64,000 nt of DNA from Geothrix sp. GTDB lineage: Bacteria; Acidobacteriota; Holophagae; Holophagales; Holophagaceae. Shown in pieces: positions 2,082-43,712 of the stretch. The notes under the pieces are model-generated. The model worked only from the letters and a program-made list of their open reading frames with translations. It was not told the DNA's origin and did not search any database. Each line of letters starts with the position of its first letter. Position 1 is the stretch's first letter. Made by a program: the position numbers and the translations under genes. The stretch is from NCBI RefSeq assembly GCF_030219325.1, contig NZ_CP126625.1:794857-858856 (forward strand). Reading direction: 5' to 3'.

Positions 2082-3572
2082 ATGCGAGTACTGGTCACGG
2101 GAGCCACGGGATACATCGGGGGACGCCTGGTCCCCCGCCTCATCGCCAAGGGGCACTCGGTGCGCTGCCTGGCCCGGGATCCCCAGCAGCTCCAGGGGCG
2201 GCCCTGGCCCGGCGTCGAGATCGTGCAGGGGGACCTGGGGAGTCCCGAGACCCTCCCCTTCGCCCTGGAGGGCATCGACGTGGCCTACTACCTGGTCCAC
2301 GCCATGGCCGACGGCAAGTCCTTCCGGGAGCAGGACCGCAAGATGGCCCGCGCCTTCGGGGAGGCGGCCCGGCGAGCCAGGGTCCGGCGCATCGTCTACC
2401 TGGGCGGCCTCGGCGACCCGGGCGAGCTGCACAGCAAGCACCTGATCAGCCGCCAGGAGGTGGGGCAGAACCTCGCCCGGGCTGGCGTGCCCGTGGTGGA
2501 GTTCCGCGCGGCGGTGATCGTGGGGTCCGGCTCGGCCAGCTTCGAGATGATCCGCCACCTCACGGACCGCCTGCCGCTGATGGTGGCCCCGCGCTGGGTG
2601 GAGACCCGCTGCCAGCCCATCGGCATCCGCAGCGTGCTGGACTATCTGGAGGAGGCCCTGGACCACCCCGAGGCCCGGGGCATCTACGAGATCGGCGGAA
2701 CCGACATCCTGACCTACCGGGAGATGATGCTCGGCTATGCCCGGGCCAAGGGCCTGCACCGCATCATCCTGCCGGTGCCCATGCCGAAGCGGAATTTCAG
2801 CAGCCGGGTGATCGACCTCCTGACCCCGATCCCGCACCGCATCGCGGCGGCCCTGCTGGAGAGCCTCCGCACCGAGGTGGTGGTGCGGGACGATCGCGCC
2901 CTCCACACCTTCGCCGTGCGACCCACCACCTACGCCGAGGCGCTGGACCGCGCCCTGGGGCGCATTGCCGCGGACGACGTGGAGACCACCTGGGCCTCCA
3001 GCCTGGCCAGCACGGTCCGGAAGGATCCCGTGGGGCGGCAGCTGGACAACCAGGAGGGGTTGCTGGTGGAGCGCCACTGGCGCAAGGTGCAGGCTTCTCC
3101 CGAGCGCGTCATGGATATCATCTGCGCGCTGGGGGGCGAGCAGGGCTGGCCCGCCGGCAACGCCCTCTGGCAGCTCCGGGGCGCCATCGACCGGGCCATG
3201 GGCGGCGTGGGCATGCGCCGGGGACGGCGGCATCCCAAGGACCTGCGCGTGGGCGATCCCCTGGACTTCTGGCGGGTGGAGTCCTTCGAGCCGGGGCGGA
3301 TCCTGCGCCTGCGCGCCGAGATGAGGCTGCCCGGCCGGGCCTGGCTGCAGTTCGAGGTGCGCCCGGAGGGCAGGCAGACCCACCTGGAGCAGACCGCCTT
3401 CTTCGAGCCCCACGGCCTCTCCGGCAACCTCTACTGGTACTCGGCCATGCAGCTGCACCGGTTCATCTTCCCGGGCCTCATCCGCGCCATCCAGACCCGC
3501 GCCGAGGAGGACCACACCCTGGACTACACCCTGCCTGGCCTGCCGGCCCCGACCCTGCTCGTGCAAGAGTGA
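2082..3572 (+). CDS. NAD(P)-binding SDR (atypical) with C-terminal DUF2867-like domain
   Basis: A 496-aa protein. The N-terminal Rossmann fold opens with VLVTGATGYIGGRL, the glycine-rich nucleotide-binding motif of NAD-dependent epimerase/atypical SDR proteins, followed by GDLGSPETL and a YLGGLGD strand. From about residue 310 the protein changes to a DUF2867-type domain (polyketide-cyclase-like fold) ending in LPGLPAP. This two-domain layout is known from YtfG/NmrA-related proteins of unknown substrate. I chose ATG 2082 because AAGGGGGA lies just upstream. A GTG 42 bp earlier has no such site. The substrate is unknown. The MOSC gene follows 43 bp downstream. Confidence 0.8.
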   Translation: MRVLVTGATGYIGGRLVPRLIAKGHSVRCLARDPQQLQGRPWPGVEIVQGDLGSPETLPFALEGIDVAYYLVHAMADGKSFREQDRKMARAFGEAARRARVRRIVYLGGLGDPGELHSKHLISRQEVGQNLARAGVPVVEFRAAVIVGSGSASFEMIRHLTDRLPLMVAPRWVETRCQPIGIRSVLDYLEEALDHPEARGIYEIGGTDILTYREMMLGYARAKGLHRIILPVPMPKRNFSSRVIDLLTPIPHRIAAALLESLRTEVVVRDDRALHTFAVRPTTYAEALDRALGRIAADDVETTWASSLASTVRKDPVGRQLDNQEGLLVERHWRKVQASPERVMDIICALGGEQGWPAGNALWQLRGAIDRAMGGVGMRRGRRHPKDLRVGDPLDFWRVESFEPGRILRLRAEMRLPGRAWLQFEVRPEGRQTHLEQTAFFEPHGLSGNLYWYSAMQLHRFIFPGLIRAIQTRAEEDHTLDYTLPGLPAPTLLVQE

Positions 3573-14257: not shown

Positions 14258-15139
14258 ATGCCCATCGCCATCCTCGGACCCACGGCCTCCGGCAAATCCG
14301 CCGTGGCCGTGGCCGTGGCGCGCCGCCTCGGGGGCGCCGTGGTCAACGGCGATCCCTTCCAGGCCATCCAGGGGCTGGCCATCGGCACTGGGCAGCCGGA
14401 CGCGGCCGAGCAGGGCGGGGTGCCGCACCTGGGCTACGGAGCGCTGCCCCTCTCGGCCCGCCCCAATCCCAAAGCCTTCGGGGCATCGGTCAGGGGGTGG
14501 CTGGCCGAGGCTTCCAAACCGGTGCTGGTGACGGGATCCGGTCTGTACCTGCGGGGCATCTGGGACCAGCTCTCGGATCTGCCCCCGGTCGATCCGGCGC
14601 TGGTGGACCGGGTCCGATCCTGGGGGGTCCGGCTGGGCGTGCCCACCCTTCACCGCTATCTGGCGGCCGTGGATCCGGCCCGCGCCGCGGCCCTGCACCC
14701 CCACGACGCAGCCCGGGTCCAGCGGGCCCTGGGTCTCCACTTGGCGACCGGTGGCGCCCCGTCGGAGTTTCTCTCCAGACCGGCCACCGGCGTTCCCCCG
14801 GGATGGCGGGTGCTGGTGGTCGCGCCCGGCCGCGAGCGCCGCCGCGAGCGCGTGGTGGCGAGGGTGGCCGCGCAGGTGGCGGCAGGCTGGCTGGACGAGG
14901 TGGCGGGCCTGGTGGCGACCGGCCATGCCGACGACCTGAGGGCCCTCCGGCCCCTGGGCTATGCGGCCTGGATGGCGGGCGGCGATCCCCATGCGACCCG
15001 GCTCGACGTGATCCAGGAGACCCAGGCCTACGCCAAGCGCCAGGCCACCTGGTTCCGCAACCAGCTGCCGGAGGCGCCGGTCTGGGATCCGGATCTGGAG
15101 CCGCTGGGGGCGGCCTTCGAGCGGCTGGGGCTGGGATGA
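14258..15139 (+). CDS. miaA: tRNA dimethylallyltransferase (divergent MiaA)
   Basis: A 293-aa enzyme expected to transfer a dimethylallyl group to A37 of tRNAs reading UNN codons. The P-loop GPTASGKS opens the protein, VTGSGLYLRGI matches the conserved GGTGLY block, and QETQAYAKRQATWFRNQ matches the C-terminal motif. The DSxQxY and GTAKP motifs are degenerate here (GDPFQAIQGLAIGTGQP). No other family fits better. There is ATGA overlap with the next gene. Confidence 0.85.
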   Translation: MPIAILGPTASGKSAVAVAVARRLGGAVVNGDPFQAIQGLAIGTGQPDAAEQGGVPHLGYGALPLSARPNPKAFGASVRGWLAEASKPVLVTGSGLYLRGIWDQLSDLPPVDPALVDRVRSWGVRLGVPTLHRYLAAVDPARAAALHPHDAARVQRALGLHLATGGAPSEFLSRPATGVPPGWRVLVVAPGRERRRERVVARVAAQVAAGWLDEVAGLVATGHADDLRALRPLGYAAWMAGGDPHATRLDVIQETQAYAKRQATWFRNQLPEAPVWDPDLEPLGAAFERLGLG

Positions 15140-15888
15140 GGCCGGAGAGCTGGTACGAGGGCCGGACCTCGCTGGAGCTGCTGCGGGGGGAAGGCTGGGC
15201 CTGGATAGGTCTGCGCTCGGGCGACGGCCTGAACCGCCTGCACAGCGACCTGCTGGTGGCCCTGGACCAGCTGTTCATCGAGCTGCGCTGGGCAGGGACG
15301 CGCCGTGTGGCCCTCAGCGCCGCGGGGTGGATGGCAGGCGTGCCGTCCGGGCTTTGCCTGGACAGCACGCAGGGGGCTCCGGGGGGGACATCGCTGGCAT
15401 CAGCGAGCAGGCGGTCCCCCCCGGCTGCGTTAGCACGCGGGCACCACTTCTCCGCCGGGGCCGATCTGCACGAGGTGGGCGCGCTGGATGCCGTGTCCGC
15501 CGAACCCTTCTCCCGGCGCGGTCAGCGGGTCATGGCGCACCTGCTCTGGTCCGGCTGGCGCAGCCTCACCCTGATTTCCGGCGTGGCCATGGGGGGCGGC
15601 TGCGACCTCGCCCTGCACGGCCAGGAGCGCTGGGCCGTGGCGGCCGATGCCGAAGGCCGGCACGGCCTGCGGCTGGCCCATCCCGCCGCGAAGCACGGCA
15701 TCCTCACGGGTTTCGGGGGCACCGTGCGGCTGCCCGAAATCCTGGGGCGCCGCGGGGCGGACCGCCTGTTCCGGGATTTCGAGACCTGGAGTGAGACCAC
15801 GGCCCTGCAGCTGGGTGCCATCCATCGGGTGGTAGCTCCAACCGCGATCGGTTCGGAGGTCCACGTATGGCTGGCAGGATCCGGCTAG
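15136..15888 (+). CDS. Enoyl-CoA hydratase/isomerase-fold protein with in-frame insertion
   Basis: A 250-aa crotonase-fold protein. The oxyanion-hole segments are HHFSAGADL (103-111) and GVAMGGGCDLAL (149-160), and GILTGFGGTVRLPEILG follows. The usual first catalytic Glu position is Asp in GGGCDL, and the second lies in PAAKHG with no acidic residue, so classic hydratase activity is doubtful. Residues 65-102 form a low-complexity insert exactly where the fold normally passes directly from beta-strand RRVALSAAG to HHFSAG. The DNA encoding it is a palindromic repeat (see 15328-15441). Start ATG 15136 overlaps the miaA stop. Confidence 0.75.
   Translation: MRPESWYEGRTSLELLRGEGWAWIGLRSGDGLNRLHSDLLVALDQLFIELRWAGTRRVALSAAGWMAGVPSGLCLDSTQGAPGGTSLASASRRSPPAALARGHHFSAGADLHEVGALDAVSAEPFSRRGQRVMAHLLWSGWRSLTLISGVAMGGGCDLALHGQERWAVAADAEGRHGLRLAHPAAKHGILTGFGGTVRLPEILGRRGADRLFRDFETWSETTALQLGAIHRVVAPTAIGSEVHVWLAGSG
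15328..15441 (+). repeat. In-frame two-hairpin palindromic element inside the crotonase-fold gene
   Basis: A 114-bp (38-codon) segment. Hairpin 1 is GTGCCGTCCGGGC-TTT-GCCTGGACAGCAC (about 15340-15367). Hairpin 2 has a perfect 11-bp stem CCGGGGGGGAC (15379-15389) / GTCCCCCCCGG (15414-15424) enclosing the 6-bp stem TCGCTG-GCAT-CAGCGA. It is flanked by CGCGGG on both sides (15321-15326 and 15436-15441). Removing it restores a continuous crotonase fold. The same order of blocks recurs at 42714-42779. Confidence 0.6.
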
Positions 15889-40686: not shown

Positions 40687-42519
40687 TCATTCCACGGTCA
40701 CCGACTTGGCCAGGTTCCTGGGCTGGTCCACGTCGCAGCCGCGAAGTACCGCAATGTGGTAGGCCAGCAGCTGCAGGGGGACGGCATAGACGATGGGGGC
40801 CAGCCAGGGGTGGACCGGAGGCAGCTCCAGCACGTCCTCGGCGATGCCGGCCAGGCCCGTGTCGCCCTCGGTGACCAGGGCCAGGATGCGGCCGTCGCGG
40901 GCCGCGGCTTCCTGCAGGTTGCTGAGGGTCTTGTCCCGGTGGGCGTCCTTGGGCATGAGTGCCACCACGGGCAGGGTCTTGTCGATGAGGGCGATGGGGC
41001 CGTGCTTCATCTCGCCCGCCGGGTAGCCCTCGGCGTGGATGTACGAGATCTCCTTCAGCTTCAGCGCCCCTTCCAGGGCGATGGGGTAGCAGGGGCCGCG
41101 GCCCAGGTAGAGGAAGTCGGTGGCGTCCTGCCAGCGCTGGGCCCACTGGATGATCTTAGGTTCCAGCGAATTCAGCCGTTCCAGGTGCGCCGGGAGTTCC
41201 CGCAGACCCTGCAGCAGCTCGGCCTTGAGCTGGGGATCCACGGTGCCCTTGGCCTCGCCGAGCTTGAGCGCCAGCAGGGTCAGGACCGCCAGCTGGGTGG
41301 TGAAGGCCTTGGTGGAGGCCACGCCGATCTCCGGCCCCGCGTGCGTCAGGATCGTGGCCTCGCACTGCCGGGTGGCGGTGGAGCCCATGACGTTGCAGAT
41401 GGCCAGGGTGCGGGCGCCGCGGGCGGCGGCCTCCTTCATGGCGGCCAGGGTGTCGGCGGTCTCGCCGCTCTGCGTGATGCCGATGATGAGGGTGCCGGGC
41501 TGGATGACGGGTTCGCGGTAGCGGTACTCGCTGGCGTAGTCCACTTCCACGGCCACCCGGCTCAGCTGCTCGATGAGGAACTTGCCCACGAGGCCGGAGT
41601 GCCAGCTGGTGCCGCAGGCCACGATGTGGATGCGGGTGAGGTCCGCCAGCTCTTTTTCCGTGAAGGGGAGGTCCAGCGGAATGGGTTCACCGTGGAGTGG
41701 AAGGCGATTCAGCAGCGTGTTCGAGAGGGCCTGGGGCTGCTCGAAGATCTCCTTCTGCATGAAGTGCTTGTGGCCGCCCTTTTCGGCCGCCACGGGATCG
41801 TAGGGGATGGTGACCACCGGGCGCGCCACGTCACCGCCATCCAGGCGGAAGATCCGAGCGCCTTCCCGGGTGAGTTCCACGAGGTCGCCATCCTCGAGGA
41901 AGATCACCCGGCGGGTGTGGGGCAGCAACGGCACGACGTCGGAGGCCAGAAAGGTCTCGCCTTCCCCCAGCCCCAGCACCATGGGCGGTCCGCTGCGGGC
42001 GGCCAGGATGCGGTCGGGATCGGTGGCGTGCAGGCAGGCCAGGGCGTAGATGCCCTTCATGCGCCCCACGGCCTCCCGGAAGGCTTCCGTGAAGGAGCGG
42101 CCCTGTTTCATGAGGTGGGACACCATCACGGGGAAGCACTCGGTGTCCGTCTCGGACTGGAAGGTCTCCCCAGCCGCCTTCAGTTCGGCGCGCAGTTCGA
42201 GGAAGTTCTCGAAGATGCCATTGTGGACCGCCACCACCTGGCCATCGGCGCTGCGGTGGGGGTGGGCGTTCTCCTCCGTGGGGCGGCCGTGGGTGGCCCA
42301 GCGCGTGTGGCCGATGCCCAGCGGGGTCGGATCCGACAGGTCCACTTTGCCAGCGAGGTTCACCAGCTTGCCGGAGGCGCGGATGACGTTGAAGGCGCCG
42401 GATCCGGAGGAGAGGGCGATGCCCGCACTGTCGTAGCCGCGGTACTCCAGGCTCCGCAGGCCGTTCACGAGGATGCCGGCGGCACCCTGCTGTCCGATGT
42501 ATCCGACGATGCCGCACAT
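40687..42519 (-). CDS. glmS: Glutamine-fructose-6-phosphate aminotransferase
   Basis: A 610-aa enzyme making glucosamine-6-phosphate for peptidoglycan and LPS. The N-terminal glutaminase starts with catalytic C2 (MCGIVGYIGQQ), then LEYRGYDSAGIA and GIGHTRWATHG. Two SIS domains follow (CGTSWHSGL, GITQSGETADTLAAM; and LEGALKLKEISYIHAEGYPAGEMKHG). It ends in the conserved RNLAKSVTVE. Length is standard. No glmS ribozyme is visible upstream. Confidence 0.97.
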   Translation of the reverse strand: MCGIVGYIGQQGAAGILVNGLRSLEYRGYDSAGIALSSGSGAFNVIRASGKLVNLAGKVDLSDPTPLGIGHTRWATHGRPTEENAHPHRSADGQVVAVHNGIFENFLELRAELKAAGETFQSETDTECFPVMVSHLMKQGRSFTEAFREAVGRMKGIYALACLHATDPDRILAARSGPPMVLGLGEGETFLASDVVPLLPHTRRVIFLEDGDLVELTREGARIFRLDGGDVARPVVTIPYDPVAAEKGGHKHFMQKEIFEQPQALSNTLLNRLPLHGEPIPLDLPFTEKELADLTRIHIVACGTSWHSGLVGKFLIEQLSRVAVEVDYASEYRYREPVIQPGTLIIGITQSGETADTLAAMKEAAARGARTLAICNVMGSTATRQCEATILTHAGPEIGVASTKAFTTQLAVLTLLALKLGEAKGTVDPQLKAELLQGLRELPAHLERLNSLEPKIIQWAQRWQDATDFLYLGRGPCYPIALEGALKLKEISYIHAEGYPAGEMKHGPIALIDKTLPVVALMPKDAHRDKTLSNLQEAAARDGRILALVTEGDTGLAGIAEDVLELPPVHPWLAPIVYAVPLQLLAYHIAVLRGCDVDQPRNLAKSVTVE

Positions 42520-42713
42520 GGGGGACTCCCGATCACAGGTCCCAACTTAGCGGGATGGGCCCTGGGATCCAATGTGGTTCCGCATACCCGCCTCGCCGCA
42601 CCCGCCGAACCACAGGTGTGGCAGACCCGCCCCGGCCAGTCGAAGGGCCATCGCGGAACGGCCTGCACCCCGCGTTACACGAAAGAACGCTGAGCGTTTG
42701 GTTGGGAGCCAAA

Positions 42714-42779
42714 GCGAAGCCCGGCTTTGCCGGGCTTCGCGCGGGGGTCCGGGGTGTGCGCGCAGCGCGGAACCCCCGG
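42714..42779. repeat. Two-hairpin palindromic element downstream of fliN
   Basis: A perfect 12-bp hairpin GCGAAGCCCGGC-TTT-GCCGGGCTTCGC (42714-42740) is followed by GGGGGTCCGGGG (42743-42754), inner GCGC arms, and GGAACCCCCGG (42769-42779). Block order and several sequence blocks (CCGGxCTTTGCCxGG; GGGGG(C)TCCGGGG; GCGGxxCCCCCxGG) match the element inside the gene at 15136. It may also terminate the fliN operon. The rest of the 266-bp gap (42520-42713) shows nothing gene-like. Confidence 0.6.
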
Positions 42780-42785
42780 AGGATA

Positions 42786-43712
42786 TTAGGCCAGGCTGCG
42801 GATCCTCGCGGCCCGGGTGTCGATCTCGGTGATGCGGAAGGCGAAGTTGCCATCCACGACCACCACCTCGCCCTTGGCGATGAGCTTGCCGTTTACAAGC
42901 AGCTCCACCGGCGCATCGGCGCTGCGGTTGAGCTCGAGGATGGAACCCGGCGTGAGCTTGAGCAGCTCGCCCATCTGCATCTCGGTCTGGCCCATGCGGA
43001 CCACCACGGGAAGCTGGATGTCCAGGAGCAGGTCCAGGTTGCCGGAATCGGGGGCAGGTCCCGAGGCCACGGGGGCCTGCCGGGGCGGGGCGGCCAGGGT
43101 GGCGGCCACGGAGGCCGGGGAGGGCTCGGGTGCCGGTGGGGCCTCCACGAGGCCGAGCTTCCGCTTCAGCTGCTGGAGCAGCAGATCGGGGAAGAGCAGA
43201 TGGATGGTCGTGCTCAGCGAGTCCTGGGTCGTCGGCAGGGAGAGGTCCTGGAAGCCGCCCTGGCCCAGCTGCTCGGCGAAGGCCGCGGCCTCCGGCTGGA
43301 TGGCCAGGATCTCCACATTGGCGATGGCGAAGGTCTCCCCGGCCAGGTCCGAGAGGGTCTGGTTGGCGCTGCCCAGCACCTGGTTGAAGGTCTCGGCCAG
43401 GGCGTCCTTGGAGTCGCCGACCAGCTCCTCGGCGGCCGCGCCCTCGCCACCCAGCATGAGGTCCACCAGCATGGTGCCCTCCTTGAGGGGGAGGGTGAAG
43501 AAGAGCGTGCCGTTCAGCCCCTTCTGGTAGTTGGCCTTGACGAGGATGCCGGTGCCCTCGTGCAGGGCGGCGACTGCGGGGGTCTCCAGCAGCTCGCCCG
43601 GCGCCGACTTGATCTGGAATTCGCGTCCCGTGAGCATGGAGAACACGGAGGCCATGCTCTCGGCGAAGGCGCTGCCGACTTTCTGGAAGAATTCAGTGTC
43701 TCGGGCATCCAT
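42786..43712 (-). CDS. fliN: FliN/FliY motor switch protein with CheC-like N-terminus
   Basis: A 308-aa protein. The C-terminal SpoA/FliN domain (about 230-305, LLLDIQLPVVVRMGQTEMQMGELLKLTPGS) builds the C-ring base. The N-terminal CheC/FliY-like domain (1-200) includes DALAETFN, which fits the CheC-family phosphatase pattern D-x3-E-x2-N (D103, E107, N110). The proline that follows in CheC/FliY is not seen. A Pro/Ala linker joins the two. FliY of Bacillus is the nearest architecture. It is last in the flhA-fliN operon. Confidence 0.88.
   Translation of the reverse strand: MDARDTEFFQKVGSAFAESMASVFSMLTGREFQIKSAPGELLETPAVAALHEGTGILVKANYQKGLNGTLFFTLPLKEGTMLVDLMLGGEGAAAEELVGDSKDALAETFNQVLGSANQTLSDLAGETFAIANVEILAIQPEAAAFAEQLGQGGFQDLSLPTTQDSLSTTIHLLFPDLLLQQLKRKLGLVEAPPAPEPSPASVAATLAAPPRQAPVASGPAPDSGNLDLLLDIQLPVVVRMGQTEMQMGELLKLTPGSILELNRSADAPVELLVNGKLIAKGEVVVVDGNFAFRITEIDTRAARIRSLA

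Follow-up and report, generated by a model that had tools for sequence, protein, structure and literature searches.

The segment that interrupts a crotonase-fold gene in this Geothrix genome is not specific to crotonase: it is one copy of a dispersed repeat family that, among the genomes searched, is restricted to the Holophagaceae, with empty sites in relatives and in-frame insertion in at least four genes. We consider it likely that the family belongs with the REP/RPE class of palindromic mobile elements, is non-autonomous, and is translated into a disordered loop wherever its length and frame allow.

The host locus lies in the window (the whole 64,000-nucleotide stretch that was analysed), where the end of miaA and the start of the crotonase gene overlap as ATGA. 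Its features are as follows.

14258-15139, plus strand: miaA, tRNA dimethylallyltransferase (PF01715, E 1.9e-40).
15136-15888, plus strand: host gene, a crotonase/enoyl-CoA hydratase-fold protein of 250 aa, insert included (PF00378, E 2.8e-10; of 46 distinct ortholog sequences, 43 are insert-free and correspondingly shorter).
15337-15432, plus strand: inserted element, 96 bp in frame, GVPSGLCLDSTQGAPGGTSLASASRRSPPAAL, delimited by ortholog alignment with boundaries certain to a few bases only; covariance model R1 matches 15334-15436 (90.2 bits, E 1.5e-15), this same copy having gone into building the model.
15338-15370, no strand assigned: hairpin H1, arms 15338-15352 and 15356-15370, locus-specific in sequence, with covariation that keeps the pairing.
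15379-15424, no strand assigned: hairpin H2, perfect 11-bp arms 15379-15389 and 15414-15424 plus an inner TCGCTG/CAGCGA stem, nearly invariant in sequence family-wide.
15430-15433, minus strand: element end, reading TTAG (minus-strand CTAA), from the tabulated ends of 100 copies; not read as a stop here.

As the first-pass annotation had proposed, the PF00378 reading frame carries an extra in-frame segment with strong DNA palindromes between RRVALSAAG and HHFSAGAD, and the crotonase sequence closes up without it. The ortholog set comprised 45 loci in named genomes, of which three are distant crotonases and the remainder orthologs from Geothrix, other Holophagaceae and unclassified Acidobacteria MAGs. 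Nearly all are insert-free and cleanly joined, reading for example GWMADRGHHF or GWMAGRGHHF; the insert is common only to the window and two other loci, L031 (genome G052) and L032 (genome G017), and these residue-sharing orthologs also have the DNA palindromes. The alignment reduces the proposed size of 38 codons (114 bp) to 96 bp, or 32 codons, since the edge residues GWMA and ARG are native. Likewise, the perfect 11-bp stem with its inner stem is present, whereas the two hairpins, described as nested, stand side by side. The CGCGGG reported on both sides does occur, but as native coding sequence that is unconserved in the other two carriers, and it is therefore not a target-site duplication.

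The insert is unusual in both fold and composition. H1 in this copy is a 15-bp hairpin with 87% complementarity, and the 114-nt segment 15328-15441 folds at -71.3 kcal/mol compared to -54.8 +/- 4 for dinucleotide shuffles (z-score -4.1; none of 200 shuffles equally stable). When the window was tiled into 1332 stretches of 96 nt, none folded as stably as the 96-nt insert itself. Its codon-usage score is -0.85 per codon, strongly non-coding, versus +0.38 and +0.32 in the flanks.

Further copies, which the first-pass annotation had suggested seeking, recur with the same structure in the window's own genome and throughout the genus. Plain BLAST with the segment returned four in the own genome (E 7.5e-14 to 3.5e-5, at a cut-off of E < 1e-4), and R1, built from an alignment of 28 copies (A2), found 14 there at E < 0.01 and 19 at E < 1. 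R1 copies occur in all 47 genomes of the genus, at 3-85 per genome, and the model also matches other genera of Holophagaceae; it gave no match in any further family of the class covered by the search, nor outside Holophagaceae in a 297-genome sample of the phylum. Copies measure about 78-99 bp. The two hairpins are conserved in different ways: H2 is almost invariant in sequence, while H1 varies and retains its pairing, with changes on both sides in 14 of its 15 pairs and 86% of cells paired. Over the whole structure, 108 double-change cells were counted, versus 35 in shuffles and 20-27 in slid-partner controls. Rfam returned nothing above gathering score for the insert or for ten loci with other copies, and a sub-threshold match to a microRNA family (16.7 bits) was dismissed as chance. 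Separately, tandem arrays of the element were seen at L134/L211 and L226 and in genomes G019 and G048 (period about 99 bp in the latter two, whose copy numbers of 84-85 are far above those of other congeners), and at one locus (L003, 1480-1660; G000:C1 about 1027038-1027200) the H2 stem is split by a further palindrome of ~60 bp, a nested palindromic insertion.

Most copies are intercistronic, and those lying in frame within genes are a minority. For placement, 100 copies were collapsed to 54 distinct loci, with genes called by a simple codon-usage score rather than from annotation. With every copy turned to the orientation of the crotonase one, the gene flanking H2 runs towards the element on the opposite strand at 41 of 52 scored loci (p 4e-5), and at 28 loci the distance between the foot of H2 and that gene's stop codon (TGA, TAA or TAG) is exactly the same; together these give the usual order gene 1 stop - H2 - H1 - gene 2. 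In most intercistronic copies, the stop codon of the upstream gene occupies the position of the TTAG end. A second copy in the window obeys the same order.

42710-42792, plus strand: second copy, short-type, between the fliN-like and glmS-like genes (R1 34.6 bits, E 5.4e-5).
42786-43712, minus strand: fliN-like gene, an ORF named from reading its translation, with its stop inside the element end.
40687-42519, minus strand: glmS-like gene, an ORF named likewise.

Copies end mostly in YCAG and TYAR (crotonase orientation), and the stop-bearing end CTRA is also found in several intragenic copies, where it falls in a different reading frame or on the opposite strand. TCAG at both ends was considered as a target duplication and found unsupported: the same 4-mer occurs at both ends in just 18 of 100 copies, and the intragenic inserts include the CTRA end.

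This placement lends some plausibility to a different emphasis, in which the family functions first and foremost in operons, as a cis-acting RNA element kept under selection because it protects 3' ends, serves in RNA processing or stalls ribosomes just past the stop codon, and the intragenic copies are accidental. The strong covariation of H1, and the fixed H2-to-stop spacing and orientation bias across the 54 loci, are consistent with such a role, as is the finding that ribosomes are stalled at E. coli REPs lying within 15 nt of a stop codon (PMC12306157). However, the range of copy number between congeners and the empty homologous sites in sisters are the behaviour of a mobile repeat. We hold selection for an RNA function as the primary explanation to be a tentative possibility; it is compatible with mobility, and the two readings are not exclusive.

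Copies inside other genes were sought by comparing the translated copy with the genus, a search of open frames only, which out-of-frame insertions would escape. In leuS, a 96-bp in-frame copy is present in G015, G056, G021 and G017 and the site is empty in the other matched genomes (41 of 47 matched); frames measure 849-853 aa in three carriers and are cut by the contig in G017, versus mostly about 817 elsewhere. Each carrier has a single leuS match, a spare copy not being seen, and the insert falls between the catalytic and anticodon-binding domains. In addition, priA carries a 96-bp in-frame copy in G011 and G053, and hrpB a 93-bp one in G017, the orthologs of both being empty. The hosts were assigned by family matches (leuS_bact and Anticodon_1; primosomal protein N' and PriA_3primeBD; HrpB). 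At the miaA-crotonase junction, the sister MAG loci L058 (empty) and L059 (filled, 2900-3010) differ by 78 bp added at the miaA stop TGA, which is retained in both, and the element in L059 also lengthens the crotonase N-terminus in frame; any target-site duplication in this pair would be at most the 2-bp GA. The expectation of other intragenic copies with lengths divisible by three is thus borne out in leuS, priA, hrpB and the N-terminus of a crotonase ortholog. Two groups of loci were left out of the intragenic cases as ambiguous, since the start of a second gene may lie within the element or beyond it: L204, L205, L214 and L219, where the element links an nth (endonuclease III-like) ORF and a BtuF-like binding-protein ORF in one open frame of 524-562 aa, which may be a fusion or may include a start inside the element, and L242 and L244, with cysteine-desulfurase-like N-terminal ORFs.

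Gene trees of crotonase and leuS, built without the insert, show that carriers of same-site inserts are patchily distributed. In the crotonase tree the window groups with the insert-free L033 (SH-aLRT 95), and a single carrier clade is weakly rejected (AU p 0.044); for leuS a single clade is strongly rejected (AU p 1.4e-6), and the starred branches force three changes. Because carriers do not form clades, repeated independent insertion into one hot spot in each gene might be entertained, but identical end points would demand strong site specificity, and copies sharing a site resemble one another in their variable H1 arms (0.58-1.0) more than other copies generally do (mean 0.47), a sign of shared ancestry combined with loss or lateral transfer. 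We therefore regard independent insertion as doubtful, and loss with lateral allele exchange as favoured, if not settled, by these comparisons. Moreover, the inserts of the window and L031 are 97% identical while their flanks are 81-84% identical, a contrast more in keeping with lateral exchange, or with constraint, than with simple descent.

Open frames suggest that the inserts are translated. Across ten intragenic copies the host frame contains no in-frame stops, and the other frames have some; the lengths of 96, 96, 96, 93 and 78 are all multiples of three, a regularity that is partly ascertained, since open frames were searched. The codon score is negative in all ten inserts and most flanks score as coding, the upstream flank of priA including sequence 5' of the start codon. 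An AlphaFold model of the window's crotonase, made with 20 orthologs, keeps the crotonase fold with a mostly confident core and has a disordered insert, residues 70-102 scoring pLDDT about 30. A leuS fragment gave a poor model (pLDDT 58), used solely for the observation that the insert is unstructured there too. A floppy loop tolerated by the host protein is thus the likely consequence. Strong hairpins inside essential genes could instead mark segments removed from the product, either intron-like or bypassed by ribosomes, and bypassed hairpin inserts do occur in some yeast mitochondria; under any such process, however, neither lengths divisible by three nor open frames would be needed, and we judge it very improbable. 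The 32 added residues form an open in-frame stretch that two other species conserve in part, and might be taken for a normal protein loop of this lineage, with palindromes as a by-product of GC-rich codons. This reading is practically untenable and is refuted by the dispersed copies: the same DNA element occupies non-coding positions elsewhere and is found in reverse orientation in other genes. Its composition is not codon-like, and its fold is exceptionally stable.

We compared the element with known palindromic repeats. By the accounts of RPEs given in PMC10969869 and PMC3733652, these Rickettsia elements are in-frame palindromic repeats, and intragenic REPs are recorded there from a number of species, many of them lying in genes of replication and repair. 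The Geothrix element is like RPEs and their Wolbachia counterparts, so far as those accounts describe them, in being a short palindromic repeat with in-frame copies in unrelated genes (crotonase, leuS, priA and hrpB); this likeness is one of behaviour, and membership of the RPE class is not claimed. It is unlike them in having two different adjacent hairpins, one covarying and one conserved in sequence, in its host, a GC-rich Acidobacteriota lineage, and in that intragenic copies are a small minority. With REPs and REP dimers, as the GTAG and CGTC super-families are outlined in sections of Di Nocera 2013 (PMC3733652), it shares a location mostly 3' of genes, some arrays and some intragenic copies. 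However, its stems of 15 and 11 bp differ from the 8-9 bp (CGTC) and 5-13 bp (GTAG) given in those sections, where Acidobacteria are absent from the phyla listed for the two super-families. No GTAG motif was found at the hairpin foot, where ends are mostly of the two types above. Nor does the element show the combination defining CGTC REPs (an 8-9-bp stem, a 4-5-nt loop, an unpaired CGTC end and a CCA tail), the H1 loop being 3 nt and only some copies having CGTC at the foot of H1. A search for the Y1/RAYT transposase (PF01797) gave no match in the own genome and a match in one of 15 near Geothrix genomes, the other 14 having none; a RAYT/REPtron origin was accordingly rejected. The element thus resembles RPEs and REPs in behaviour yet, in the features tested, does not fit the definition of either GTAG/RAYT or CGTC repeats. 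Intragenic copies are also described for bacterial MITEs such as ERIC and BOX (PMC10969869), which are similarly non-autonomous and palindromic and sometimes have an open frame across the element; in the Geothrix element, by contrast, terminal inverted repeats enclosing it from end to end were not seen, nor was any clear target duplication. A search of the open-licence literature for palindromic elements in Geothrix or Holophaga returned nothing relevant.

On the mobile-element reading, copies would spread as DNA through an enzyme acting in trans, which may have been lost or is still to be found, because a Y1/RAYT gene is not detectable in the own genome. Insertion or retention may favour positions at stop codons, since the upstream ORF would be undamaged there, and within genes the survivors would be copies with a length divisible by three and an open frame. 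Such copies would be translated as a disordered loop at a tolerant position, in crotonase just before the oxyanion-hole segment, so that the host protein would still work. Precise loss, lateral allele exchange or both could then make the same-site insert patchy among species. A bolder form appears unlikely, in which a Holophagaceae-wide mobile hairpin integrates at stop codons and excises without a trace, an identical in-frame insert thereby coming and going from one species to the next in leuS and other essential genes.

Rickettsia offers the best-documented palindromic insertions that keep the reading frame, and the soil and sediment Acidobacteriota related to Geothrix would provide a further case. 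The availability of empty and filled orthologs in many sequenced relatives, together with several cultured Geothrix species, would make the entry of such elements into coding genes, their exit and any effect of the added loop directly testable.
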